Assembly (NCBI GenBank): GCA_947588845.1
Contig: CANQAR010000010.1
Location: forward strand, 1-49,953
Direction of reading: 5' to 3'
Length of the DNA: 49,953 bases
DNA from: an uncultured Lachnospiraceae bacterium
GTDB taxonomy: Bacteria; Bacillota; Clostridia; Lachnospirales; Lachnospiraceae
The position numbers were made by a program, and so were the translations under genes. Under the pieces are notes generated by a model. The model did no database searches. It was given only the letters and a program-made list of their open reading frames with translations, and was not told the origin of the DNA. The number at the start of each line of letters is the position of its first letter. Positions within the stretch are counted from its first letter, which is position 1. Below, piece by piece: positions 17,919-36,754 of this stretch.

Positions 17919-18046
17919 TATAAGTCCAGTCTCATAGCAGAGGCAGACGGGCTGCGTGAGTTGCTGAGCAACGGAGCAATCCGTGGACTTATATTCATGG
18001 TGGCGCCCGCAGCTGGTTTCCTTACACGGGCCTGCGTATGAGAGTT
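17919..18046. repeat. Structured dispersed repeat, copy C (composite)
   Basis: TATAAGTCCA (17919-17928) pairs perfectly with TGGACTTATA (17984-17993). Inside is the small hairpin GTTGC-TGA-GCAAC (17960-17972), followed by GGAGCAATCCGTGG. This matches the element near 43109-43225 in layout and in the conserved 3' segment ATCCGTGG..CTT...TCATGG. The right part (18010-18040, AGCTGGTTTCCTTACACGGG then CCTGCGTATG) matches the elements at 23871 and 35271. It fills the gap between lspA and rluD. Confidence 0.6.
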
Positions 18047-23656: not shown

Positions 23657-23866
23657 ATGAGTAAAGGTATAGATTATTCCGCACTTGCCCTTGTCATTAT
23701 CGGGGCGGTCAACTGGGGACTGATCGGTATCTTCAAACTGGACCTGGTCAATCTCCTGTTCGGAAACATGTCCTGGATATCGCGTCTCGTTTATATACTG
23801 GTCGGAATATCCGGATTATATCTGCTCAGCCTGTTTGGACGCGTCAGATCCATGGGCGAAGAATAA
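23657..23866 (+). CDS. DUF378 small membrane protein
   Basis: This 69-residue protein has two membrane helices (about 8-27 and 42-63). The motif GAVNWGLIGIFKLDLVNLLF is the DUF378/YuzA signature. AAGGAGGAAA lies ahead of the ATG. The function is unknown; homologues are widespread in Firmicutes. It stands alone on the plus strand, pointing toward a structured repeat that starts five bases after its stop. Confidence 0.88.
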   Translation: MSKGIDYSALALVIIGAVNWGLIGIFKLDLVNLLFGNMSWISRLVYILVGISGLYLLSLFGRVRSMGEE

Positions 23867-23870
23867 ATCG

Positions 23871-24002
23871 GGCCTGATCGGGCAGGAGGCGGTTTTTCCT
23901 CCTGCCCGCCCGCGCGGCCCGGGTGCTGCGTCAGCAGCTGATTTCCCTGCCCGGGCCTGCGCATACAAAACCTGCGGCCGGACGATCTGTGTCCAGCCGC
24001 AG
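23871..24002. repeat. Structured dispersed repeat, copy A
   Basis: Three stem-loops are arranged in order. H1 is GGGCAGGAGG (23880-23889) with CCTCCTGCCC (23898-23907). H2 is GGCCCGGG (23916-23923) with CCCGGGCC (23950-23957), and encloses TGCTG-CGT-CAGCA. H3 is CTGCGGC (23972-23978) with GCCGCAG (23996-24002), with an inner GGAC/GTCC. A second copy lies at 35271-35416. The element sits between the DUF378 gene and the convergent P-loop gene. Confidence 0.75.
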
Positions 24003-24053
24003 AATACATAAATCATTCTCTGTTCCTTATGTAGCCAACAAGCCAATATATCC

Positions 24054-24473
24054 TTATAACTCCGCAATGATATTCTCTCTGAATCCTTCGGCAATCTCAG
24101 CAGAAGTAAGGGAGATACTGATCACAAATGTGATCTGATATTTCTCTCCAATCTGCGCAAGCCTTGTAATCAGTTCATTTGCCGAAGTCTTATCCGTGAA
24201 TGATATTTTCATAAAACTGTCAAGATACACCTGCTCAAGGTCATGATCCTGTGAAATAATCCCATAAATAAATCCGATAAACTCATCTGTGTCTGTAAGA
24301 TCAAACGAAGAAACATCAATCAAACGAACGCGGTTATTCAGTTCATACATATGTTTGGTACTTTTGTCCAGATAAACAATATTTCCATGAACTGTCTTGA
24401 TCTCGGAATTTGCTTTTTCAAGCAAAACCTTTGTCTTACCTTTCCCTTTCTCACCTACAATTAACTGTATCAT
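24054..24473 (-). CDS. Small P-loop protein of unknown function
   Basis: This 139-residue protein begins MIQLIVGEKGKGKTKVLLEK, where GEKGKGKT is a Walker A motif. A hydrophobic strand VYLDS near residue 90 may be Walker B, and FVISISL is near the end. Clostridial homologues are often labelled twitching-motility PilT-like, but it is far shorter than PilT (about 340) and lacks its hexamer domains, so I do not use that name. AAGGAGGAG precedes the ATG. It is downstream of the D,D-carboxypeptidase gene with a 79-base gap. ATP binding is likely; the role is unknown. Confidence 0.7.
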   Translation of the reverse strand: MIQLIVGEKGKGKTKVLLEKANSEIKTVHGNIVYLDKSTKHMYELNNRVRLIDVSSFDLTDTDEFIGFIYGIISQDHDLEQVYLDSFMKISFTDKTSANELITRLAQIGEKYQITFVISISLTSAEIAEGFRENIIAEL

Positions 24474-24552
24474 GGCAATCTCCTCCTTATAATATTATTG
24501 CGGATGCATTACTCGTTTTCATTATAGACGATTTGCGTATAAATTACAACAC

Positions 24553-25644
24553 TTAATTCTCAATTAACGACAATAACTCATTCATCTCGGGATAGAGCGA
24601 CTCTTTTGACTCAGAATGCAATATGATAGATAAATACGGGTTCCCATACAGATCCTTTGCCATAAGCGCCAGGCAGGCGCCGGCCTCATCCGTTGTTCCC
24701 GTCTTCCCTCCGAATACGGAAACATTTTCCGGACTGTCCGTCTGATTTGTAAAATACTGGTTTGTCGACTCCCACGTCACAGCTGCAGGAGTTCCGTCTC
24801 CTTTGACATATTCGGCATAATAGTTTTTCCGATTGATAATATCCTGAAAAAGGTCGCTTTTTACCGCCTCCTGAAAAATCAGATAAATATCATACACAGT
24901 GGTATAATGTTCCGGATCTGTCAGGCCGTGCGGATTTGCAAAATGAGTTCCCGTAGCTCCAAGTTCCTTTGCTTTTTCATTCATCATTGCGACAAAGCCA
25001 TCCACCGAACCTCCGATATGTTCAGCGATCATCATTGCCGCGTCGTTTCCCGAAGCGATCATCATTCCATAGAGAAGCTGACGCAGAGAAAAGATGTCTC
25101 CCTCCTGGATACCGCAGACAGAAGAACCAGCCTCAATATCTCTCACAGTGGAAGTCACCGTAATCATTTCGTCCAGATTTCCGTATTCAATCGTCAGCAA
25201 AGCGGTCATGATCTTTGTGACGCTGGCAGGCGCCCGTTTTGCAAAAATATCTTTTGCATAAATAACTTCTTTACGATTCAGGTCGAACAATCCTGCGGAA
25301 TAAGCGCTCAAAGGCAGAAGACCGGAATTTTCGCTGCCCGCCGACACGCAGAGGTCTTCCGCAAATGATTCTTCTGTTCTCCCGTCCTGAAGACCGCTGC
25401 GGAAACCATACACTCTGTCCGTATTGTCATACGGAACAAACAGGTCATAATCATGGGAACGGAAGACAAAATAATAGACAAGAAACACCATGATCCCGCA
25501 CAGCAGAAGAAGCAGCCCAAGCACCGCCGCAAGCTTCCTCAGATGCTTTTTTTCTTCCGCTTCCTTCCGCTGAAGTCTTGCCCATTCGCGTTCTGTATAG
25601 AAAGAACGCTCCAGACTGTTATCTGTACATTTCACGCCATTCAA
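24553..25644 (-). CDS. D-alanyl-D-alanine carboxypeptidase (PBP5/DacF class)
   Basis: This 363-residue peptidase S11 protein has an N-terminal cytoplasmic segment with charged residues, one membrane helix at about 40-61 and an outside catalytic domain. Motifs are S141-V-T-K144, S198-G-N200 and K314-T-G316. It trims the terminal D-Ala of peptidoglycan stem peptides. There is no separate C-terminal amphipathic anchor, so the N-terminal helix probably holds it in the membrane. The first 26 bases overlap the end of mgsA, indicating translational coupling. Confidence 0.9.
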   Translation of the reverse strand: MNGVKCTDNSLERSFYTEREWARLQRKEAEEKKHLRKLAAVLGLLLLLCGIMVFLVYYFVFRSHDYDLFVPYDNTDRVYGFRSGLQDGRTEESFAEDLCVSAGSENSGLLPLSAYSAGLFDLNRKEVIYAKDIFAKRAPASVTKIMTALLTIEYGNLDEMITVTSTVRDIEAGSSVCGIQEGDIFSLRQLLYGMMIASGNDAAMMIAEHIGGSVDGFVAMMNEKAKELGATGTHFANPHGLTDPEHYTTVYDIYLIFQEAVKSDLFQDIINRKNYYAEYVKGDGTPAAVTWESTNQYFTNQTDSPENVSVFGGKTGTTDEAGACLALMAKDLYGNPYLSIILHSESKESLYPEMNELLSLIEN

Positions 25645-26014
25645 GATCTCCTCTTTCCAATGATTTCAACAGCAGCTCGGCAGATGCGATATTCGTCGCA
25701 AGCGGTATATTGTGTACGTCGCAGAGACGAATTACCTTATTGATATCCGGTTCATGTGGCCTGGGATTGAGAGGATCCCGGAAAAAAATAACCAGATCAA
25801 TCTGATTCTGTTCAATCATGGCGCCCATCTGCTCCTCACCGCCGATCGGTCCCGCAAGGAATTTATGCAAGGTCAGTCCCGTTACATCTTCAATCAGCCT
25901 TCCGGTTGTCCCCGTGGCATAAAGTTCATGGTGAACCAGAATACTCCGGTAAGCAATGCAGAGATTCTGCATCAGCTTCTTCTTGGCGTCGTGCGCGATA
26001 AATGCTACGTTCAT
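25619..26014 (-). CDS. mgsA: Methylglyoxal synthase
   Basis: This 131-residue enzyme converts dihydroxyacetone phosphate to methylglyoxal. It has the conserved AHD start, ATGTTGRLI and GPIGGEEQMGAM. The E. coli catalytic base D71 lies in GGDQQ; here the same place is E60 (GGEEQ), a conservative change. FFWDP of E. coli is FFRDP here. HEPD keeps the second acid. GAGGAGG precedes the ATG. Its presence in a cell-shape operon is common in clostridia, though the reason is not known. Confidence 0.92.
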   Translation of the reverse strand: MNVAFIAHDAKKKLMQNLCIAYRSILVHHELYATGTTGRLIEDVTGLTLHKFLAGPIGGEEQMGAMIEQNQIDLVIFFRDPLNPRPHEPDINKVIRLCDVHNIPLATNIASAELLLKSLERGDLEWREMYR

Positions 26015-26027
26015 TAATTATGCCTCC

Positions 26028-27131
26028 TCAATACTTTCTGGTCTGCAGCCCCACATTCAGCACAAAACCAATTCCGATATAAAAACTTACAAGTGATGTC
26101 AATCCATAGCTGACGAATGGAAGCGTGATGCCTGTATTTGGCATAAGCCCTGTTGCCACGGAGACATTCAGAAAACTCTGGAAAAAGATCAGGGCGGCCA
26201 TGCCGCAGCAGATCAGCGTTCCTGAAAGACTTCTGGCCTGACGGCCTGTCAGCAGACATTCAAACGCGATTAAAAATTCCAGCAGTATGATCATGCAGCA
26301 GCCGATAAACCCGAGCTCTTCTCCTGCAACTGCAAAAATGAAATCTGTCTGAGGTTCCGGAATGTAATTTCCATTCTTGACAGAGGAAACATCCTCATTA
26401 TTCAATCCTTTTCCGTAAAGCTGACCGGAACCGATCGCGATGATCGAATTGATCTGCTGCTGGGCATCCTGCGGATACTCTTCCGGCTTCATCCACGCGT
26501 AAATTCTCCTCAGCTGGTAGTTTCCCATCTGCTCCGTCTCCGGCTGCATCAGAATGCTCACGCCGATAATGGCGATCGGTATAAACACCGCAAAAACCGC
26601 GCCGATTACCTTGTAGGTCAGACCTGCCGAAAAAATGACCGCGCAGAACACTGCCGCAACCACAATCGACGTGGACAGATCAGGCTCCCTGAGGATCAGA
26701 AACAGCTGGACCCCGATCAACAGCACAGAGCAGAAAATGATTCTCGGTTTGCTGATATCGTCCTGATGCAGTTCGAAAAATTTTGCAAAAAACAAAATCA
26801 GCATGATCTTCACAATGTCCGACGGCTGAAACTGTACTCCTCCGATGTTAATCCACCGCGTGGCGCCGTTGACGTTACGTCCGGCAAGGAGGACCGCTCC
26901 AAGCAGAACGCTGCCGATCAGATAGATCAGCCAGTAAAAATTCAGCACCCATGTGTAATCGAACAGGGACGTGACAATCATGGCTGCAATCCCCAGAAGC
27001 ATTCCGTAGAGCTGTCTCTGCTGGTAAGACTCGCGGGCACTTCCGATGATCAGAATTCCCAGAATGGAAAGCGCGAGCATCCAGAAGACCAGCCGGAAGC
27101 GGTAATTACTTAATCTGTACTGTCTTAACAT
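26028..27131 (-). CDS. rodA: RodA/FtsW/SpoVE-family glycosyltransferase
   Basis: This 367-residue SEDS membrane protein has about ten helices. Motifs include GRNVNGATRWINIGGVQFQP and QTDFIFAVAGEELGFIGC, and the terminal GLTSLVSFYIGIGFVLNVGL. SEDS proteins polymerise glycan strands with a partner class B PBP, here the PBP2 encoded in the same cluster, so RodA is favoured over FtsW. The start ATG lies 26 bases inside the end of minE, with AAGGGG upstream. Confidence 0.93.
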   Translation of the reverse strand: MLRQYRLSNYRFRLVFWMLALSILGILIIGSARESYQQRQLYGMLLGIAAMIVTSLFDYTWVLNFYWLIYLIGSVLLGAVLLAGRNVNGATRWINIGGVQFQPSDIVKIMLILFFAKFFELHQDDISKPRIIFCSVLLIGVQLFLILREPDLSTSIVVAAVFCAVIFSAGLTYKVIGAVFAVFIPIAIIGVSILMQPETEQMGNYQLRRIYAWMKPEEYPQDAQQQINSIIAIGSGQLYGKGLNNEDVSSVKNGNYIPEPQTDFIFAVAGEELGFIGCCMIILLEFLIAFECLLTGRQARSLSGTLICCGMAALIFFQSFLNVSVATGLMPNTGITLPFVSYGLTSLVSFYIGIGFVLNVGLQTRKY

Positions 27132-27351
27132 ATGGAACCCCTTGCTTCATCTCATGTACGATATCAACACGTATTTCCGTAACCGTATCATCAAGATACA
27201 GATATCTCGAAAGAATACTCACAAACTCTTTTTTCATTTGCCCAAGTTCTTCCGGCGTACAGGAGAGCCTGTCCGACGCAATTGTCTCCCGCACGCGCAT
27301 CTTTGCGATCCGGCTCGAAGTCTGCCGGCTTCTTTTTCTGCGAATATTCAT
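27106..27351 (-). CDS. minE: Cell division topological specificity factor MinE
   Basis: This 81-residue MinE protein has the MinD-contact segment (ASDRLSCTPEELGQMKKEFV) and the C-terminal dimer strand (VTEIRVDIVHE). MinE makes MinCD oscillate and frees mid-cell for FtsZ. The start is ATG 27351, after GGGAGG and just past the minD stop; an upstream TTG is less likely. The last 26 bases overlap rodA. Rod-shaped Firmicutes often use DivIVA rather than MinE; clostridia can have both. Confidence 0.92.
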   Translation of the reverse strand: MNIRRKRSRQTSSRIAKMRVRETIASDRLSCTPEELGQMKKEFVSILSRYLYLDDTVTEIRVDIVHEMKQGVPYVKTVQIK

Positions 27352-27353
27352 GC

Positions 27354-28154
27354 TCAACCTCCCTGTCTCCTGCGGAAGATGGAGGCCATCCTGCGGAACA
27401 GGGAAACTCCGGTCTGGAAATCCGCAAGCGGAACCGCTTCCCCTGTTATCCTTCTGCAGATATTGAGAAACGCAACCGCCGCCATGGTATCCGTCCCAAC
27501 CACTGGCTCCCCGTGATTCGCGGCAATGACAACACTGTCCTCATCCGGAACCGCTCCGAGCAGATCCACTGCCAGAATATCCACAACATCCTCAATGGAC
27601 ATCATCTCTCCTTTGCGGATCATATCAAGACGCAGACGGTTGATCAGGAGATCAATCCGTTCGATCCCTGCCGCCTCCAGAAGGCCGATAATCCGGTCCG
27701 CGTCGCGAATCGCCGCCACTTCCGGCGTCGTCACAACAATGGCGCGCGACGCGGCCGCAACCGCATTCCGAAAGCCCTGCTCAATCCCTGCCGGACAATC
27801 CATGATAACATAATCAAACAAAGGTTTCAAGCTTTCTGAGAGTTTGATCATCTGCTCCGGAGAAACGGCGCTTTTGTCCCTGGTCTGCGCAGACGGCAGA
27901 AGATACAGGTTCGGATAATGCCTGTCTCTGATCAGCGCCTGCTTCAGCCTGCAGCTGCCTTCCACAACGTCCACCAGATTGTAGATAATCCGGTTCTCAA
28001 GCCCCATGACAACGTCAAGATTGCGCAGGCCAATGTCCGTGTCAACCAGAACAACTTTTCTTCCCAGCCTTGCAAGGCCAACTCCTATATTCGCAGACGA
28101 GGTCGTTTTGCCTACCCCGCCTTTTCCTGATGTAATGACAATTACTTCACTCAT
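27354..28154 (-). CDS. minD: Septum site-determining protein MinD
   Basis: This 266-residue ParA/MinD ATPase has the deviant Walker A motif GKGGVGKTT at 10-18, VLVDTDIGLRNLDVVMGLEN as switch I and YVIMDCPAGIEQGF as Walker B. The C-terminus (PLADFQTGVSLFRRMASIFR) is the amphipathic membrane-targeting helix. It recruits MinC to the membrane. GAGGAGAG precedes the ATG. A 157-base gap separates it from minC. Confidence 0.97.
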   Translation of the reverse strand: MSEVIVITSGKGGVGKTTSSANIGVGLARLGRKVVLVDTDIGLRNLDVVMGLENRIIYNLVDVVEGSCRLKQALIRDRHYPNLYLLPSAQTRDKSAVSPEQMIKLSESLKPLFDYVIMDCPAGIEQGFRNAVAAASRAIVVTTPEVAAIRDADRIIGLLEAAGIERIDLLINRLRLDMIRKGEMMSIEDVVDILAVDLLGAVPDEDSVVIAANHGEPVVGTDTMAAVAFLNICRRITGEAVPLADFQTGVSLFRRMASIFRRRQGG

Positions 28155-28311
28155 ATACTCTCTCCTCCATCCTGTTATTCCCTGTCACCAGAAATTATTT
28201 GAGCGCACAGCGCCTGTTCTTTTGTTTCTCAGTGTCTTCCGGGCGTCCCGGGATGACGGATTTCTCTTCCTGGTTCGAATCTGTGCTGCGAAAACAGCAT
28301 ATTTCCCCTCT

Positions 28312-28989
28312 CTATCCGAGATACTCACAGAGCGTATCGCTCGAAAGTGTCCGGATCTGAATATGACCGTCCCTGAGATAGGCGATCCTTGGATCCAGAG
28401 GATAATTTCCGGAAACCGTTCGTTTTACAATAGCGCTTCGCGCCATTTTGTCCGCGATACGGATCTGCATCGGCTTCATTGTAAGCGCCGCCGCGAAACA
28501 GGAACCATCCCCGCCTGCCCCCGCGTAAATGCTCCCCAGGCAGCAGCCGAGTATGACGATATTTCCCCGCGACACCACCCGCGCTCCGGGATTTACGTCG
28601 CCGATAACAACCACGCTTGTCTCTGTTTCAAGAACCTGTCCGGACCGCAGGGTTCCGCGATAAAACTGTCCTTCGGCGCTCGCGGGCCGGTCCAGCGCCC
28701 GGATGACGGCTTCTTTGTAATATTCGTCGGTCTCCCTGCGCTCATCCACCACACAGAGAATACGCAGTCTGGAATTTTCAGCCATGGTGTCGATCAGCAT
28801 CCGCTCCTGTTCTACGCTCAGAACCCTTCCACGGAAAGTGACGGCCACATTCGCGTTTTTGAAAAAATCTGCTCCGGACGCAAATTTATCGGCAACCGCC
28901 TGGTTTAATTCCTCAAACGGAATATCCGGATCAAGCATGAGGATCAGACCGTGCGGATTGCTCTTGATTATCACCGCATTTTTTCTCAT
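28312..28989 (-). CDS. minC: Septum site-determining protein MinC
   Basis: This 225-residue FtsZ inhibitor has an N-terminal MinC_N domain (about 1-105) and a C-terminal beta-helix (about 110-210) with RSGQVLETETSVVVIGDVNP and SRGNIVILGCCLGSIYAGAG. It works with MinD and MinE to block division near the poles. A GAGAGGAAAC site precedes the ATG. It follows the PBP2 gene by 18 bases in the same direction. The order mrdA-minC-minD-minE-rodA is that of many clostridia. Confidence 0.94.
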   Translation of the reverse strand: MRKNAVIIKSNPHGLILMLDPDIPFEELNQAVADKFASGADFFKNANVAVTFRGRVLSVEQERMLIDTMAENSRLRILCVVDERRETDEYYKEAVIRALDRPASAEGQFYRGTLRSGQVLETETSVVVIGDVNPGARVVSRGNIVILGCCLGSIYAGAGGDGSCFAAALTMKPMQIRIADKMARSAIVKRTVSGNYPLDPRIAYLRDGHIQIRTLSSDTLCEYLG

Positions 28990-29007
28990 TTCAGTTTCCT
29001 CTCTCCG

Positions 29008-31899
29008 TCAGTCATTGCGCACGATATCCGAGGATACCTGTGAGGCCCGGCCGGTGATCAGTTCGCTTTCATCCTTCAGCCCGAAATAGTAGGAAATGAC
29101 ATCCCGTGCGACCGTCGCCGCGTTCGCCGAACTGTAGCCATTCGCGATCCGGACTGCAATCGCGATTTCCGGCTCCTCGTATGATTCAGGGCCGGCAAAA
29201 CCGATGAAAAGACCATGGTTCGGTATATTTACCGCGATCTGGGCCGTACCGGTCTTTCCGGCTACACTTGCCCCGGAAAATCCCCGGAAAGCCGAACTGT
29301 TCACAACCACATCGTGCATGCCGGTGTGGATTGTATCCCAAAGCTCATCGGAAAGCTCAAGTTTATTATGAATTTCCGCCTCGTTTTCCTCAAGTACACT
29401 GCCCGTGGAATCCCGGACCGCATCGATCAGCGTCAGATCATAGCATGTTCCTCTGTTTGCAAGCGTCGTCACATAGCGTGCAAGCTGAACTGTCGTGTAG
29501 GCATTATCGCTCTGTCCCATCGCACCGCGGACGGGGTCGGCCGTCAAAAGGTGCGGGGAAGTCTCCGGCACTTCGATACCTGACTTTGCATTCAGACCGA
29601 ACATGGAAGCATACTTGATCAGCTTTTCCGTGCCAGCGGCGTCGTTGTATTCCCCTTTCACCAGGCCCAGTCTCATGCCGACCGTATTGAAAAAGACGTT
29701 GCACGAATCGCGGATCGCCGTCTCAAGCGTCTCTACTCCATGACCGGCGGTATTCCAGCAGTTGATGGGGATCGCGGTATCCTCAAACTTACCGGTGCAG
29801 AGAATCCCTTCCCCGATGCTGATGACTCCTTCCATGACCCCCGCCACCGCGGTAATCGGCTTGAACGTGGATCCTGGAGCCAGCGCCTCCATCGTCGCCC
29901 TGCTGTAGAAAGGACTGGACTTGTCGCTGTTCAGTTTTCTGTAATAGGCAGTGTCCATTTCATTGGCCAAACGGTTGTTGTCATAGCCGGGATAGGTTAC
30001 GCACGCGAGCACTTCACCGGTATTCGGGTTTGTGATAACCACGGAGCCTGAGCATGGATTCAGCGCAAGCTGCGACGGCCGGATCTCCAGAGAATAGATC
30101 TTTTCCTTCATGAAATCAAAGCCGCTCAGCGACCCGTTTAAAAGCCTCTCATACGTATCGGCGTCCATTTCAAGAATCCCCTGATCATAAAGCAGGAGAC
30201 AGATCTGCGCGCCGGTAATGCTCTGCTCCTGAAGCATGTAGCGGTAAACCTGTTTGCAGAAATCATTGTCCTCGTACAGATAATCCGCGATATAATCCGC
30301 AAGCATCGAGTAAGTCTCGGAGGAATCCATGTATTCCGTATCCTCCGAAATCCGTGTGAGATCCAGCCAGTTTTTCGAGATGGCATACGTCAGATATTCC
30401 TTCAGACTGATTGACTCGTCTCTCGTCCAGGCCAGATATACCGGATCTGTCTCGTCAATCGCCTCCGCATTCAGTATTCCCGTGTCATTTGTCAGCATAT
30501 TGCTGACAATATAGGACATATAAACCTGGTATTCCTCTGTCAGATCCTTATAGGCCAGAGGGGTCTCTGTCAGAAGCTGGGTTTTGATCGTGGCGAATAT
30601 ATCCGAAGCCTTGACCAGGAACGCATTGTACACAGCCTTCTCATTCTCTGTCGCGGTATCCGACTTTAAGTGGCTGACATCAAGCACATTATTCTCAAAC
30701 AGAGCATAATACACATCATAATACGGAATTCTGACCTGGTCCGCAGAAGTATACCATTCCTCATTGATCTCCTGCTCGGGAACCATATTGACCCACACAA
30801 TTCCGGCAATATACTGCTCAAGGATCTGATAGACCGCATTCTGCAGCTCATTGTCAATTGTGAGCGTGAGATCGCTGCCCGCGACAGGCTCTTCCCTCGA
30901 TTCCACCGCAAGCGTACGTCCCAGATTGTCAACAGACAAAAGCTCGCTTCCTTTTGTCCCCTGCAGCGTCGTCTCCATTTCCTTCTCAAGACCGGTCTTT
31001 CCGACTATGTCGGTAGCCGTATATTCCCCGTTCTCCTGGCTCAGTTCCTCCAGCTCTTCCTGTGAAATTCCTCCCGTATAGCCAATCAGCGGAGCAAGCG
31101 ACTCCGCGTTCGCATATACGCGAAGATATTCCTCCGATATATCAATGCCGGGGAATCTGTCTTTGTTCTCCATGATCTGCGCCATGGTATCGCGGCCGAT
31201 GTTGCGCGCGATCGTAACGGTCTGATACCGCTGAAAGCTGTAGGCCGCGATATCCGCCCGCAGCCCGGCAAGCTGCAGGATTTCGTGATCCGTAAAAGAA
31301 TCCGGGAGTCCGTATTCCTCACGTTCCTGTTCTGTAATATCAGGATCCAGGATTCCGTAATGATCCTCGTCGCAGAGCTGCTTCATCAGATCTCCCGCCG
31401 TAATATCCCGCTCTTTCTCAGAAAGATCATCGATCAGGGCATGTCCGAACAGATCCGCCTTGAAACGCTGCAGCGTAAATCCGGATACATTGTAGACATA
31501 GCCGCCGCCCGCAGACTGCTCAATCTCAAAGTCCTCCACGACGGAATCTCCGTGGCTCTCAATCATCCTGATGAGATTATACAGCATGCCGTTCAGCTTC
31601 AGATTTCTTTCATGCGTGTTCGTATCGGGGATGGTATCCTCGAACACAACGCAGTAGGAAAGCTCATTGTAGGCTACAGGAACGCCGTTTCTGTCGTAGA
31701 TATTTCCGCGCGCGCTTGAAAGCTGACGTTCTCTCTTTATGGAAAGTGAAAAATCGTTCTGATAAGACTCCCCGTTGATGATCTGAATCTGGAAAAGCCG
31801 GTGAAACAGAATCGCCGTCATCAGCGTGATCAGAATCATCAGGATCAGTACTCTCGACCGGATAACTCTCGAAAGGCCGTGCTTTAAATGTTCAAACAA
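29008..31899 (-). CDS. mrdA: Penicillin-binding protein 2 (class B transpeptidase), enlarged
   Basis: This protein of about 963 residues crosslinks peptidoglycan during elongation. One membrane helix lies near the N-terminus (about 17-38), then a PBP dimer domain, then the transpeptidase with S677-T-F-K (LAPGSTFKPITAV), SDN (GQSDNAYTT) and KTG (AGKTGTAQIAV). It is larger than the 630-residue PBP2 of E. coli. Extra sequence lies between about residues 355 and 600. I prefer TTG 31899, 11 bases after AAGGAG; GTG 31911 overlaps that site. It overlaps mreD by eight bases and is probably the RodA partner. Confidence 0.93.
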   Translation of the reverse strand: MFEHLKHGLSRVIRSRVLILMILITLMTAILFHRLFQIQIINGESYQNDFSLSIKRERQLSSARGNIYDRNGVPVAYNELSYCVVFEDTIPDTNTHERNLKLNGMLYNLIRMIESHGDSVVEDFEIEQSAGGGYVYNVSGFTLQRFKADLFGHALIDDLSEKERDITAGDLMKQLCDEDHYGILDPDITEQEREEYGLPDSFTDHEILQLAGLRADIAAYSFQRYQTVTIARNIGRDTMAQIMENKDRFPGIDISEEYLRVYANAESLAPLIGYTGGISQEELEELSQENGEYTATDIVGKTGLEKEMETTLQGTKGSELLSVDNLGRTLAVESREEPVAGSDLTLTIDNELQNAVYQILEQYIAGIVWVNMVPEQEINEEWYTSADQVRIPYYDVYYALFENNVLDVSHLKSDTATENEKAVYNAFLVKASDIFATIKTQLLTETPLAYKDLTEEYQVYMSYIVSNMLTNDTGILNAEAIDETDPVYLAWTRDESISLKEYLTYAISKNWLDLTRISEDTEYMDSSETYSMLADYIADYLYEDNDFCKQVYRYMLQEQSITGAQICLLLYDQGILEMDADTYERLLNGSLSGFDFMKEKIYSLEIRPSQLALNPCSGSVVITNPNTGEVLACVTYPGYDNNRLANEMDTAYYRKLNSDKSSPFYSRATMEALAPGSTFKPITAVAGVMEGVISIGEGILCTGKFEDTAIPINCWNTAGHGVETLETAIRDSCNVFFNTVGMRLGLVKGEYNDAAGTEKLIKYASMFGLNAKSGIEVPETSPHLLTADPVRGAMGQSDNAYTTVQLARYVTTLANRGTCYDLTLIDAVRDSTGSVLEENEAEIHNKLELSDELWDTIHTGMHDVVVNSSAFRGFSGASVAGKTGTAQIAVNIPNHGLFIGFAGPESYEEPEIAIAVRIANGYSSANAATVARDVISYYFGLKDESELITGRASQVSSDIVRND

Positions 31900-32410
31900 T
31901 GCGGTCAACACTCCTTTTATCTGTCAGACTCAGCTGTCTGTTGATCTGATACAGAATACGGTAGCAGACGATCGTCAGAAGCAGCGTATAGACTACCTCC
32001 GGCATGATAATCCGCCCCAGATAATAGAAAAAGTGAATCCGTCCGCGCATCAGGAACAGAAACCCGTACTGCAGGATCCCGTAGACAAGATCACAGACCG
32101 AGATCAGAAGAAGAGGCGTTTTTATATCATCGTCATAAAATATACGGTAGAAGTAACCGCTGTAGTATCCGATCCACAGGTACAGCAGCGCATGAAAACC
32201 GATGATGCTTTCAAAAAAGATATCGCTGATCAGACCGCAGAGAAAGCCGGTCATAAGACCGTCCCTCCTTCCCCTCATCAGCCCGAAGGAAACCGTAAGA
32301 ATAATCAGCAGATTCGGCTTGATCTGTCCGACCGCAATCATCTCGCACACTGTAGACTGCAGGATGGTGCACACCAGGATCAGAAGAATCATTGTTGTTT
32401 TCCGCTTCAT
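31892..32410 (-). CDS. mreD: Rod shape-determining protein MreD
   Basis: This 172-residue protein has about five membrane helices: ILLILVCTILQSTVCEMIAV at the N-terminus, LIILTVSFGLMRG, and GFLCGLISDIFFESIIGFHA, which is the MreD signature. It links MreB and MreC to the wall-synthesis enzymes. The start ATG overlaps the mreC stop (ATGA), and the end overlaps the PBP2 gene. GGAGGG lies about nine bases upstream. Confidence 0.92.
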   Translation of the reverse strand: MKRKTTMILLILVCTILQSTVCEMIAVGQIKPNLLIILTVSFGLMRGRRDGLMTGFLCGLISDIFFESIIGFHALLYLWIGYYSGYFYRIFYDDDIKTPLLLISVCDLVYGILQYGFLFLMRGRIHFFYYLGRIIMPEVVYTLLLTIVCYRILYQINRQLSLTDKRSVDRIV

Positions 32411-33348
32411 TCGGTTCTGCCCTCCCCGTCAGGCGCCGCTTCCGTCTCTTTCTCCGCTTTGCCATTTCCGGAACCGCCTCCGGAAAGTCCCTCTTCTTCC
32501 TCAAGTATGGCCGCCGTGTCGGAAGGAATATATTCCTTCAGCTCAAGGATGACCAGCACTTCCTGCAGATGTCTGAAATCCACCACAGGAGTGAGAAGTC
32601 CGGACTTGGTCATATTGTTGGAATCATTGTTCAGCTCGCTGATATAGCCGATCAGAATGCCCGGAAGGAATTTTTCACTGATGTACGAGGTAACAACTTT
32701 ATCGCCGACATGTACCTTGTTGTCTGAATCTGTCAGCTTTACGAGATTCAGAGCCCCTTCATCAAGCAGACGCAGATCGCCCGCAATCATGCACTGATCG
32801 GATGTGTTGGAGACCATAGCGCTGACGCTGCTGTTGTCATCAATAATGGAACGCACCGTCGCCCAGCTGCTTCCGACTTCCGTGACAATGCCGACAAGGC
32901 CGCTTCCTGAAATAACATTCATGTCTTTCTTAATACCGTCTTTTGATCCTTTGTCGATCGTAAAAATCTGAAACCAGTTGCCCGATTCCTTCGCAATGAT
33001 CCGCGCGCCCACCTTCTCGTAATCCTCATACTGCTGATCCAGCTCAAATAATTCGCGCAGACGGTCCAGCTCCTCCTTGTTCTGGATAAGCTGCGTATTC
33101 TCCACAGTCAGCTGATCCACCCGTTCTTTCAGCTGCGCGTTCTCCTCCCGCAGAGAAACCGCGTCCTCAAAATTATCCGCAAGCCCGGACAGCCAGCTGC
33201 CCAGTCCGTTGATTCCTTTCTGAATCGGCGTGATCACAAAACCGCTCACCTGCTTTACAGGCGAAATCAGCCCTTCTCCAAGAAACGATATGCCGATCAG
33301 CAGCACACAGACGAGGCTCAGCGCATTCTCATTTGTCGTTTTTCTCAT
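32407..33348 (-). CDS. mreC: Rod shape-determining protein MreC
   Basis: This 313-residue protein has one N-terminal membrane helix (about 10-28), a coiled-coil region (about 65-110, REENAQLKERVDQLTVENTQ) and two beta-barrels (VISGSGLVGIVTEVGSSWAT). The C-terminal 40 residues are acidic and low-complexity. It forms the extracellular scaffold of the elongation machine. I choose ATG 33348, with GGCAGG six bases before; an upstream TTG adds two residues. It overlaps mreD by four bases. Confidence 0.94.
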   Translation of the reverse strand: MRKTTNENALSLVCVLLIGISFLGEGLISPVKQVSGFVITPIQKGINGLGSWLSGLADNFEDAVSLREENAQLKERVDQLTVENTQLIQNKEELDRLRELFELDQQYEDYEKVGARIIAKESGNWFQIFTIDKGSKDGIKKDMNVISGSGLVGIVTEVGSSWATVRSIIDDNSSVSAMVSNTSDQCMIAGDLRLLDEGALNLVKLTDSDNKVHVGDKVVTSYISEKFLPGILIGYISELNNDSNNMTKSGLLTPVVDFRHLQEVLVILELKEYIPSDTAAILEEEEGLSGGGSGNGKAEKETEAAPDGEGRTE

Positions 33349-33361
33349 ACTCAACCTGCCT

Positions 33362-34378
33362 TTACCTCATTAATGCGAGATCCTGAAGAGAGTAAGCCAG
33401 CTTCCTCATGTCACGGCTGTTCAGGATCTCAACAAGTCCGCGGATTGTGCAGTTCGCCGGATCCTTCACATGGTGAACCGGTATGCCGACTTCCCTTCTT
33501 ATATAGTCAGGGAGATTCAGAATCATGGAAACGCCGCCGCAGAGATAGATGCCCTCCCGCACAATATCTTTCAGAAGCTGGGGAGGGACTCGGTTGCAGA
33601 CGGATTTGATACTCTCCACAATCGCATCCACCGTATCAATGATCGATACGCTCACGGCAAGCGAAGGAATGACATCTGCCTTGGGAAGACCTGAAAGTGT
33701 ATGGATCCCAAACACACGGCGTTCAAGACGAGGCCCGTTGATCATAAAAGCAAGATTGTTTTTCAGAGCTTCCGCTGTCCTGTGTCCGATGCTGAGGTTA
33801 AATTTGCGCCGGACCATTGTCATAATATCTTCGTCCAGGCGCCTTCCTCCCGCCTTCACCGTCTGACACAGAATTATTTTTCCCGCGGATACAACGGCAA
33901 TCTCTGTTGTATCTGCTCCGATATTGACTGTCATATGCCCGCGCGGCGTCAGAACGGAAAGACCGGCTCCCACGGCATCCGCAAGTCCCTTGTCAACCAG
34001 ACGGACCCGTCCCGCGTTGATCTTGCTGCTCATGACATGAAAAAAGGCACGCCGCTCCACTTGTGTGATATCGCTCGAAACAGCAATATAAATAGAACTG
34101 TTCCCTCCTCCGAATCCGTGAAACCGCTTCAGCGTATGATACAGGACAAGTTCCATCTCCGTGGCATTGGCAATCACGCCGTTTGCCATCGGCCAGATGA
34201 CCTGTACATTCTGAGGTGATTTTTCGTACATCATATATGCGGTATCTCCCACGCCGATTACCATGCGTCCGCGCATCGCTATCACGTTTTTATCATAAAG
34301 AAAGTGTTTCCCGTTCTTATCCCGGATCTTGATCGTATCTGTTCCGAGATCGACTCCACATACTTTCTGAAACGGCAT
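33362..34378 (-). CDS. mreB: Rod shape-determining actin-like protein MreB
   Basis: This 338-residue actin-fold ATPase has phosphate 1 (GVDLGTDTIKI), phosphate 2 (MTVNIGADTTEIAVV) and adenosine (YLCGGVSMI) motifs. It forms membrane-bound filaments that guide wall synthesis. The sequence is divergent from B. subtilis MreB, for example GADTTE in place of GGGTTD. It may therefore be an Mbl-type paralogue. AGGGG precedes the ATG. It opens the mreBCD run, 12 bases after radC. Confidence 0.93.
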   Translation of the reverse strand: MPFQKVCGVDLGTDTIKIRDKNGKHFLYDKNVIAMRGRMVIGVGDTAYMMYEKSPQNVQVIWPMANGVIANATEMELVLYHTLKRFHGFGGGNSSIYIAVSSDITQVERRAFFHVMSSKINAGRVRLVDKGLADAVGAGLSVLTPRGHMTVNIGADTTEIAVVSAGKIILCQTVKAGGRRLDEDIMTMVRRKFNLSIGHRTAEALKNNLAFMINGPRLERRVFGIHTLSGLPKADVIPSLAVSVSIIDTVDAIVESIKSVCNRVPPQLLKDIVREGIYLCGGVSMILNLPDYIRREVGIPVHHVKDPANCTIRGLVEILNSRDMRKLAYSLQDLALMR

Positions 34379-34390
34379 ATTCTATTCCCC

Positions 34391-35152
34391 TCATTTTCCG
34401 CGGCCGCCATCTTCCTCCCACTGCAGGATCCCCTGTTCCCGCATACTGACAGCCGCCCTGTCCCCGATTATGATATGATCCAGAAGCTCAATTCCGATCA
34501 GGCGTCCCGCTTCCATGACACGCCTCGTAAGCAGGATATCTTCTCTGCTTGGATCAGGTATCCCGCTTGGATGATTATGCACCAGAATGATGCTGACGGC
34601 CAGATGCCGCAGCGCGCTGATAAAAATTTCTCTCGGCGAAATCAGTGACGCGCGCACCGTCCCCTTCGATACGGCTTCATCATGAATCAGCATCCCCTTG
34701 CTGTTCAGCATAAGCACGCGCAGAATCTCCTGCTCCTGATGGCGCATCTCCTCCATATAATATTCCGCAACAGACGCCGGATCACGAAAAGAAAGCTTTC
34801 CGGAAGCCTGTGTCCGCGCAATCCGCCGGGAAAGCTCCGCGATGCATTTGAGCTGTACCGCCTTCACTTTTCCCACTCCGCGTATTTTCTGTAAATCAGA
34901 AACCGACATGTGATAAATGCCAAGCAGGCCCTGGCCATCTCCCTGACTGGCCAGTACTTTTCTTGACAGCTCCAGCGCCGATTCCCCCCGCACGCCCGTG
35001 CGCAGTATGACAGCCAGCAGTTCCGCGTCAGACAGACATCCCGCTCCGCCGGCCAGACATTTCTCGTATGGCCGTTCCTCTTCCGGGATCGCCTTCATGG
35101 ACAGAAGGGCTGCTTTTTCTTCTGGTGCTGATACTACAGCTTTTTCTTTCAT
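34391..35152 (-). CDS. radC: RadC/YsnA-family JAB-domain protein
   Basis: This 253-residue protein has a helix-hairpin-helix-like region (LQKIRGVGKVKAVQLKCIAE) and a C-terminal JAMM metalloprotease-like motif, LVHNHPSGIPDPSREDILLT. The RadC function is uncertain, and evidence for a direct DNA-repair role is weak. No strong ribosome site lies before ATG 35152, so the start is less certain; ATG 35098 (MKAIPEEE) is possible. The promoter region has a near-LexA box. RadC upstream of mreB is a conserved clostridial and bacillar order. Confidence 0.92.
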   Translation of the reverse strand: MKEKAVVSAPEEKAALLSMKAIPEEERPYEKCLAGGAGCLSDAELLAVILRTGVRGESALELSRKVLASQGDGQGLLGIYHMSVSDLQKIRGVGKVKAVQLKCIAELSRRIARTQASGKLSFRDPASVAEYYMEEMRHQEQEILRVLMLNSKGMLIHDEAVSKGTVRASLISPREIFISALRHLAVSIILVHNHPSGIPDPSREDILLTRRVMEAGRLIGIELLDHIIIGDRAAVSMREQGILQWEEDGGRGK

Positions 35153-35202
35153 ATTGAGTACCGTGTGCTCTCACAGACCCTGTACTTTGAATCGTTCTTG
35201 TT

Positions 35203-35240
35203 ATTCTACCATAAATATCCGGCAAAGTATACACTTGTTT
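35203..35240 (-). promoter_or_regulatory. radC-mre promoter with near-LexA box
   Basis: On the minus strand TAGAAT (35208-35203) is a good -10 element. The -35 region is weak (TATACT, 35231-35226). AAACAAGTGTAT (35240-35229) overlaps it and differs from the AAAC-N4-GTTT pattern of the lexA promoter at one position. The LexA link is tentative. Confidence 0.4.
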
Positions 35241-35270
35241 TTCTAAAGTTTTTTTAAATTTCCATATGCG

Positions 35271-35416
35271 GGCCTGATCGGACAGGAGGCGGCTTTTCCT
35301 CCTGCCCGCCGCGCGGCCCGTGTGCTGCGTCAGCAGCTGTTTTTCTTACACGGACCTGCGCATAGACGCAAAATCTGCCGCCGTACAGAACAGAACTTCC
35401 ATACAGCGGCAGATTT
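35271..35416. repeat. Structured dispersed repeat, copy B
   Basis: Same order as the 23871 copy. H1 is 35280-35289 with 35298-35307. H2 is GGCCCGTGT (35315-35323) with ACACGGACC (35348-35356), enclosing GCTG-CGT-CAGC. H3 is AAATCTGCCGC (35371-35381) with GCGGCAGATTT (35406-35416), 11 bases perfect. The first 75 bases are nearly identical to copy A. Together with the radC promoter it fills the hisIE-radC gap (35153-35443). Confidence 0.75.
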
Positions 35417-35443: not shown

Positions 35444-36754
35444 CTACCTCCGTGCCAGCTCGCGTGTGATATCTTCCCAGTTTACACCCTTTTCTGCCAT
35501 CAGCACCATGACATGATACAGAAAATCAGAGATCTCATATTTGATCTCTTCCGGATCGGGATTCTTGGCGGCGATCACAATTTCCGTCGCTTCCTCGCCG
35601 ACTTTCTTGAGTATCTTGTCAATCCCTTTCTCAAAAAGATAATTTGTGTAGGAACCCTTCTTCGGATGCTGCTTCCGGTCAAGAATGACGGCAAAGACAT
35701 CCTCAAATACTTTCAGAGGATTTGTCTCCGCATACCCTCTTTTCATAATACTGCGGTAAAAGCAGCTTTTGTTTCCGGTATGGCAGGCGGCTCCGATCTG
35801 CAGCACTTTCGCGAGCAGCGTATCGTTGTCACAGTCGACGCACAGTTCCCGGACATACTGGAAATGTCCGGAAGTCATCCCTTTCACCCAGAGTTCTTCT
35901 CTGCTGCGGCTCCAGTAGGTCATACGGCCGGTGCGCACAGTCTCTTCGTACGCCTCCTGGTTCATATAGGCCACCATGAGCACCTCCTGCGTCCTGCAGT
36001 CCTGCACGACGACCGGAAGCAGTCCGTCGCGGCCCGTTTTGAAATCGTTCCAGGAAAGCGACGCCTCATACGTATTGACCGCGATGCCGGAAGCTTTCAG
36101 AAAATGCTTGCGCTCCATAAAATCGTCCGCGCCCATCAGTTCACGACTGGCAATGCCAGAAGACGCCGGATGCCGCAGCACGCGGATCACATCGTTCTCC
36201 TGATATCCGTCCAGACAGAGCAGTACACTGCCTTCCTGTGCGTTTTCGTCCCGCTTTTCCAGGATTTCCTTCTCCATCCCTTCCAACACGGATATTTCCG
36301 CGTCGAGCCAGATGAGACCGCCGAGATATTTCTCATATTCTTCCAGATCGTCAAATTCATCCGTCGTGACACAGGCCAGAATCTTTTCCTTTCCAAAACG
36401 ATCCGATACTTCCTGGATCATTGCGCGGTTTTCTTCTTTCCCAAAATTCAGAAAAATTTTCCGGCATCCCGCATAGAGCAGCTTCTTGACATCTTCTGCC
36501 CGGCGGATATTCCCGCCGCCGTATACCGGAATGTCGGAAGTTTCAGCAATTTTTTTGATTACGCTGATGGACTGGTCATGCTCTGCGTCTCCTTCGGAAA
36601 GATCAAACAGCAGGATGCCGTCCGCACCGTAATTGCTGTACTGCTGCGCGAGTACGGCGGCGTCTTCCCCAGGCATGTCCTCACAGGTCTCTTTGTCCGC
36701 GGCGGCCCTTCCATGTTTCAGGTAAAGCGGAACAAACAGTTCTTTCTTCTTCAT
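35444..36754 (-). CDS. hisIE: HisIE with an N-terminal HisF-like domain
   Basis: This 436-residue protein covers two histidine steps. Phosphoribosyl-AMP cyclohydrolase (HisI, about 235-340) has [20 protein letters not shown]. Phosphoribosyl-ATP pyrophosphatase (HisE, about 350-436) has [16 protein letters not shown]. Residues 1-210 look like a HisA/HisF barrel with the phosphate loop [20 protein letters not shown]. The first catalytic Asp (CLDV of HisF) is replaced here by PLYLK, and the second (VAIDAK) by ACVTTDEF, so the barrel is probably inactive. Similar fusions occur in Lachnospiraceae. AAGAGGAG precedes the ATG. Confidence 0.9.

Follow-up and report, generated by a model that had tools for sequence, protein, structure and literature searches.

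The 49,953-nucleotide (nt) stretch analysed here (hereafter the window; contig CANQAR010000010.1 of an uncultured Lachnospiraceae bacterium) contains two full copies of a short intergenic repeat, at positions 23877-23965 and 35277-35364 on the minus strand. The repeat is probably a ribozyme-less, non-autonomous and non-coding mobile element that uses, or is derived from, the pathway by which group IIC introns retrohome. It is a dispersed repeat with a covarying structure, it is inserted next to terminators in one orientation, some of its sites are empty in a close relative, and it shares its 3ʹ end with group IIC introns.

The boundaries were taken from an alignment of 37 units from 30 loci, which gave a unit of about 89 nt running on the plus strand from ATCGAG to GCGCATA. 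The part shared by the two window copies is this 89-nt unit with two hairpins, H1 and H2 (89 nt and 117.1 bits with the covariance model R1 in copy 1, 88 nt and 99.6 bits in copy 2). On the minus strand, which is the intron-like sense, the unit immediately follows an intrinsic terminator's T-tract, opens with RTGCGC, continues through H2 and H1, and most commonly ends in CTACTCGAT, with CTGCTCGAT and CTGCCCGAT as alternatives. The first base is mostly A and sometimes G or T. In copy 1, the 5ʹ end TATGCGC lies at 23965 and the 3ʹ end CCCGAT at 23877. Folding and covariation place H2, a long stem with 10 nt bulging on one side and a 5-bp hairpin at its apex, at 23912-23962 (minus strand), and folding and pair counts place H1, a terminal hairpin resembling domain VI, at 23879-23908 (minus strand). 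Open reading frames (ORFs) crossing the repeat look chance-like, and 89 nt is too short for an intron-encoded reverse transcriptase (RT).

The original prediction described two sequences with three shared stem-loops. Both sequences were found where it placed them, and in a pairwise alignment they are nearly identical from 23870 and 35270 across H1 and most of H2. H1 and H2 are common to both, but the third hairpin, H3 (23972-24002 at copy 1 and 35373-35414 at copy 2, both on the minus strand by folding), is not the same hairpin at the two places and lies outside the repeat, resembling the ordinary terminator of the P-loop gene at copy 1 and of hisIE at copy 2. H3 was considered as a part of the unit and rejected: all 48 other source-genome matches run out between bases 89 and 114 of the 132-base query (43 before base 105), so that matches usually stop short of H3. 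The G-C to C-G change in H3, proposed as a paired change, is not covariation, because H3 differs from site to site and because in the close relative G046 the hisIE terminator stands alone, the repeat being absent. In H2, the change from G-C to T-A was confirmed, as one of many similar changes in the unit alignments. The unit itself is not supported as a termination element, the terminator being the separate H3 and the unit lying beyond its T-tract.

Both sequences folded better than almost all dinucleotide shuffles on either strand, with z of -6.1 (0/200 as good) and -3.6 (1/200) on the plus strand and -5.5 and -7.1 (0/200 each) on the minus strand. In A2, an alignment of 34 units from the source genome, 97.9% of cells were paired over 29 pairs, and cells with two-sided changes numbered 28 against 8.0 in shuffles. 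Across species (67 matches from 53 sources, 66 distinct), two-sided changes were found in 28 of the 29 pairs and in both stems, with 263 such cells against 77.3 in shuffles, a number reached by 0/500 shuffles; this alignment was fitted to the model and therefore favours the structure, while slid controls gave far lower numbers (16-32 cells). H1 is fully paired in copies ending in CTGCTCGAT. In copies ending in CTACTCGAT, the minus strand can place C opposite the A located seven bases before the end (fold of L024); this A presumably corresponds in position to the branch A in group II domain VI. Two repeats of G011 (L224 and L238) have an entirely different H1 that is still paired, and a 138-nt unit in G013 (L085:2750-2887) carries additional bases in the apical part of H2.

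The source genome (G000; 5.06 Mb in 280 contigs) gave at least 49 matches by BLAST, the query included, when 40 of 266 candidates were scored, and at least 150 units with the model R1, which is a lower bound because it equals the number of candidates scored. In a survey of 98 genomes, made with stricter filters than the search of the source genome, 35 were carriers: the source, 32 of 46 congeners, G050 (same family, different genus), and G066 (same order, different family). In the congeners G006 and G029, 149 of 150 scored candidates each were units. Named carriers among the matches listed were uncultured Lachnospiraceae, Clostridiales, and one Marvinbryantia bin (at least 90 stretches at 80 or more loci). 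No Rfam family matched the window at gathering scores, and the hits around copy 1 were weak and chance-like. A covariance-model search of the kind that the original prediction proposed returned many further copies with covarying stems in related genomes, and no known Rfam family accounted for them. A phage or plasmid source was also considered and rejected; one exact pattern was found in 0 stretches of viral contigs, and copy 1 was unmatched in plasmid and phage collections.

Comparison with G046, whose hisIE is 89% identical, was informative on mobility. When 78 distinct sites of the source genome were compared with 1.18 Mb of G046 DNA, 18 were found with both flanks, of which 11 were empty and 7 filled, several of the sites scored as empty being too rearranged to inform. 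At the site of copy 2, G046 has hisIE, the terminator, and the radC side, and the repeat is absent; the site L190:8551-8624 is also cleanly empty. Target site duplication was examined at the empty sites, where the sequences have strongly diverged. In the reverse comparison, of G046 repeats with the source-genome DNA examined, all 7 paired sites were filled. Tandem arrays are present, and at 24 junctions counted the following unit mostly lacks its first few bases, starts such as CAGGCC, CGCAGG, CACAGG, and TGCAGG replacing TATGCGCAGG. Copies truncated at either end were also found. These arrays and truncations, like the empty sites, point to a mobile element, and the small non-autonomous mobile repeat that the original prediction listed among its options is supported by the many copies, the empty sites, and the covarying stems. 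Inspection by eye of the G046 match list showed no autonomous form carrying a gene between the two hairpins.

The repeat has a preferred place and orientation. Genes were called with a simple codon-score script rather than a gene finder, and copies inside called ORFs (2 in the source genome, 5 in G046) were left out. Where there was a gene on the GCGCATA side, it ended towards the repeat in 63 of 73 cases in the source genome and 29 of 41 in G046, and sites between two gene starts were rare (2/78 and 2/47). Hairpins below -12 kcal/mol were present in 93 of 120 flanks on the GCGCATA side; the opposite side gave 40 and mononucleotide shuffles gave 32, all with short-flanked copies excluded. Gene ends and hairpins on the same side indicate that the usual order on the minus strand is gene, terminator hairpin, T-tract, and repeat. 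One copy (L053, contig C1 of the source genome) lies just behind the 3ʹ end of an apparent tRNA gene, as judged by eye.

Intrinsic terminators are the reported targets of group IIC introns, which enter immediately behind them (PMC8919778, PMC4424553), and the repeat has the same feature: it lies directly behind such terminators in a fixed orientation. The connection was not predicted; it arose after the fact, from inspecting the 3ʹ ends of matches to RF00029 (group II intron), which were found in 20 of 47 genomes. Several of these introns in congeners end in CTACTCGAT, as does the minus strand of the repeat. With the RT of one such intron as query, matches were found in 49 of 200 genomes of the family. 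Among 18 loci inspected from this search, 11 start with GTGCGCC or GTGTGCC behind a T-rich stretch and 13 end in CTACTCGAT; the last 16 letters are CCGCCTCCTACTCGAT in 9 of 16 IIC ends, and the remaining ends differ further in. Some repeats have the same 16 terminal letters as this commonest intron form. When the IIC intron of L372 was compared with five repeats, L024 was identical over the last 17/17 letters and L030 over 16/16, a score of 16 that was reached by 0/150 dinucleotide shuffles of L030 (maximum 13). L083, from G001, scored 13 at the same place.

A 22-nt profile of the 3ʹ end was made from 10 distinct IIC ends, and both strands of the window were scanned with it. The two best scores fell exactly at the end of copy 1 (20.6, at 23877) and the end of copy 2 (14.6, at 35277), the next being 13.8. 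In 1.17 Mb of G046, all 10 top hits and 37 of the top 40 were inside repeats. The distance from the base of the terminator stem to the 5ʹ end is also similar: its median is 7 nt for 39 IIC introns gathered by a motif pattern and 6 nt for 120 repeats, and it stays within 12 nt in 38 of the introns and 99 of the repeats. A pyrimidine follows the 3ʹ end in 96% of repeats (n = 97) and in 47/48 IIC flanks. The repeat has a 3ʹ hairpin of the domain VI type ending in AY, 15 of 67 cross-species repeats having other ends.

Several observations of introns and repeats side by side were made. An IIC intron stands directly behind a repeat at one place in the source genome (contig C23) and at one in G046 (contig C222), which supports the link with IIC introns. 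In G039 (L403), repeat-like sequence stands directly after the end of an intron, as judged by eye. In the source genome, IIC 5ʹ ends stop after 69 nt at four contig edges (C52, C152, C153, and C244; L432-L435), which fits a multi-copy intron collapsed in the assembly. A second repeat, with the core TCACAGG..AAATTTC..CCTGTGA and flanks, was found at 8 places in the source genome and 5 in G046 in the DNA examined (for example L002, L019, L022, and L023 in the source genome and L457 in G046); it stands directly at an end of the CGAT type in 4 source cases and 1 G046 case, and in one example it comes after an IIC intron's 3ʹ end.

The ends of the repeats fall into classes that are also seen in introns. 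Across species, 39 of 67 repeats have ends of the first form (CTACTCGAT, CTGCTCGAT, or close to them), 7 end in CTATCCGAT (G012, G020, G035, G038, and G042), 6 in CTGCCCGAT or CTGTCCGAT, and the remaining 15 differently; in each genome other than the source, the end class was read from the one to three best-scoring repeats. Among 78 copies of the source genome, 31 end in CTACTCGAT, 21 in CTGCTCGAT, and 9 in CTGCCCGAT. A second IIC subfamily ends in CCCCTATCCGAT and was seen by eye in the source genome, G001, G014, G039, G046, and G201. Both end classes are therefore present in repeats and in introns of the genus and family, but the second class was not seen in both within one genome.

A number of results weigh against an origin in the IIC pathway. 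The unit has no domain V and folds as two hairpins only, so that it is no ribozyme by itself, and its first base is usually A instead of the G of the group II start GUGYG. Copy 1 matches the end of the L372 intron at 15 of the last 17 letters, with a score of 11 that is below the best L030 shuffle, and the best match of copy 2 to this intron lies elsewhere. The profile score of copy 2 is within the maxima of five shuffled windows (11.6-18.0), so that copy 1 alone stands out by score. Both G011 repeats were retrieved without a CTCGAT end. The CTATCCGAT end was found in 0/78 source copies and 0/42 G046 copies, and the genomes with CTATCCGAT repeats differ from those with introns of that end class. 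RF00029 had no match in the source genome under strict filters, and this genome shows only fragments of IIC introns, which may be an effect of the assembly. In A2, pairs with two-sided changes were not in excess (4 vs 2.8, reached by 125/500 shuffles).

The wobble pairs add to these points. With two pairs omitted and units that are not independent, G-T cells exceeded A-C cells on the plus strand in 97 units of the source genome and G046 (94 vs 66, p 0.016), and again when 53 units from named records were added (132 vs 95, p 0.008). In sets chosen by the model, the counts were 93:22 and 64:8 over all pairs and 41:19 and 22:8 without the two pairs. This excess leans towards the strand opposite to the intron-like sense as the folded one.

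Group II RT matches were associated with the repeat (28/32 carriers vs 6/14 non-carriers, p 0.003), but this count includes many weak matches and other RT types and ignores phylogeny. IIC 5ʹ DNA, as a further point against the IIC pathway, was no predictor (22/32 carriers vs 11/14 non-carriers, p 0.72), and G016 and G023, with 9 and 7 IIC 5ʹ matches, gave no repeat. G016 has eight equal-scoring group II RT genes with 5ʹ DNA of the IIC type (contigs C1, C2, C7, C9, C11, and C16), and the repeat was not found there.

That IIC introns do not predict the repeat would suit a repeat moved by a DNA transposase, similar to repetitive extragenic palindromes (REPs) and bacterial interspersed mosaic elements (BIMEs) or to miniature inverted-repeat transposable elements (MITEs), in which case the IIC likeness would be coincidence or convergence on a safe site. 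The repeat is palindromic, extragenic, of high copy number, and found in tandem, as REPs are. Y1 transposases, however, were not associated with it (17/32 carriers and 7/14 non-carriers, p 1.0; other transposase families untested), and the Y1 gene of the source genome that is free of stops sits in an IS605-like element whose flanks are unrelated by eye. Terminal inverted repeats of the MITE type were not seen in the 89-nt unit, its ends ATCGAG and GCGCATA not being inverted repeats of each other as judged by eye, and a DNA transposase leaves the 16-17-nt matches at the 3ʹ end unexplained. We regard this explanation as unlikely.

We also weighed whether the repeat is a structured RNA, or a 3ʹ processing or stability element, selected by the host behind its genes and spread by recombination. 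The strong covariation across species and the position at gene 3ʹ ends (in both genomes combined, 92 of 114 neighbouring genes called on the terminator side end towards the repeat) agree with such a role, and the structured RNA that was initially suggested is still compatible with the data because the structure is kept. The repeat is, however, patchy among close relatives and missing at orthologous genes, and it is situated past the terminator, in a region that should be little transcribed. We consider host selection improbable as the explanation. It is hardly credible that IIC introns use the repeat as a favoured landing hairpin, comparable to the attC sites that, together with terminators, they are reported to use (PMC4424553), and that it is not their passenger: IIC introns do stand directly behind the H1 hairpin of repeats at the two places in contigs C23 and C222, but a landing site leaves the repeat's own register behind terminators and its intron-like 3ʹ end unexplained.

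We return to the group IIC pathway, a link that goes beyond the original prediction, whose interpretation was otherwise supported in part. We infer that the repeat moves through an RNA intermediate, is mobilised in trans by IIC proteins, and descends from an intron rather than mimicking one. The intron-encoded reverse transcriptase/maturase might accept the short RNA owing to its intron-like ends, whether or not the intron ribozyme also acts in trans, and the RNA would be inserted behind terminators, where it harms no gene. Since the unit has no domain V, any reverse splicing of it would need catalysis in trans.

A more specific proposal, to which we give even chances, is that these repeats are bacterial counterparts of short interspersed nuclear elements (SINEs): 89-nt RNAs with IIC ends, reverse-transcribed into terminators by intron proteins, with more than one end class derived from more than one IIC subfamily and about 150 or more copies per genome. 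They would stand to IIC introns as group III introns stand to group II introns, but would be mobile. No such element was described in the titles and abstract openings that our searches of open-licence papers in PMC returned. If the proposal is true, the repeat would be a bacterial retroelement parasitising another retroelement. It would bear on the minimum RNA needed by a group II system, on how group III and spliceosomal introns came to rely on trans-acting machinery, and on where the unexplained palindromic repeats behind terminators come from.

The two copies have different neighbours in the window. Upstream of the terminator at copy 1 is a minus-strand gene for 139 amino acids (24054-24473) with no Pfam family, in which a P-loop-like GEKGKGKT motif was seen by eye. 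On the other side, a plus-strand DUF378 gene (23657-23866; PF04070, E 2.3e-24) has its stop 10 nt before copy 1, so that this copy lies between convergent genes, a point absent from the original prediction. The letters GGGCCTG before copy 1 (23870-23876) occur at several tandem junctions and probably remain from a unit that adjoined it. The terminator at copy 2 is preceded by a minus-strand hisIE-type gene (35444-36754) with PRA-CH, PRA-PH, and His_biosynth domains. A 37-nt remnant of a third copy, corresponding to model positions 52-88, lies on the plus strand at 18003-18039 (nhmmer, E 2.4e-4) and did not appear in the original prediction.

Among known systems, group IIC introns resemble the repeat in terminator insertion, orientation, and spacing, in a GTGCGC start against RTGCGC in the repeat, in the CTACTCGAT end, and in the pyrimidine that follows. 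They differ in having about 1,900 nt with domain V and a reverse transcriptase, whereas the repeat has 89 nt without either and about 150 or more copies; judged by domain V, the repeat is not a group II intron. In structure it comes closest to the group III introns of Euglena plastids, which are reported to be about 90-120 nt and sometimes to consist only of domain I and VI motifs (PMC4424553). Group III introns, however, are inside genes and spliced, while the repeats are intergenic behind terminators and look mobile.

REPs are described as palindromic, extragenic, of high copy number, and tandem (PMC2817692, PMC3733652), and are defined in one of these sources as a 20-40-nt palindrome with GTAG (or CGTC) at one end (PMC3733652). 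The REP/BIME system with its RAYT transposase thus resembles the repeat in being palindromic and extragenic, in copy number, in arrays, and in complementary changes, but the repeat is longer (89 nt), has no GTAG or CGTC foot at either end, and has no associated Y1 transposase that we found. The bcr1-type repeats of the Bacillus cereus group are likewise short interspersed repeats of Firmicutes with mobile features; TTTAT motifs and a mechanism like site-specific recombination have been proposed for them, and the account in PMC6542083, as far as it covers their ends, describes no IIC-like ones.

In eukaryotes, SINEs are short non-coding RNAs that borrow the machinery of long interspersed nuclear elements (LINEs) through a shared 3ʹ end. 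This sharing is mentioned in PMC5135761. The repeat would be alike in that a short non-coding RNA would share the 3ʹ end of a retroelement, and it differs from SINEs in being bacterial, in lying behind terminators, and in having intron-type ends.

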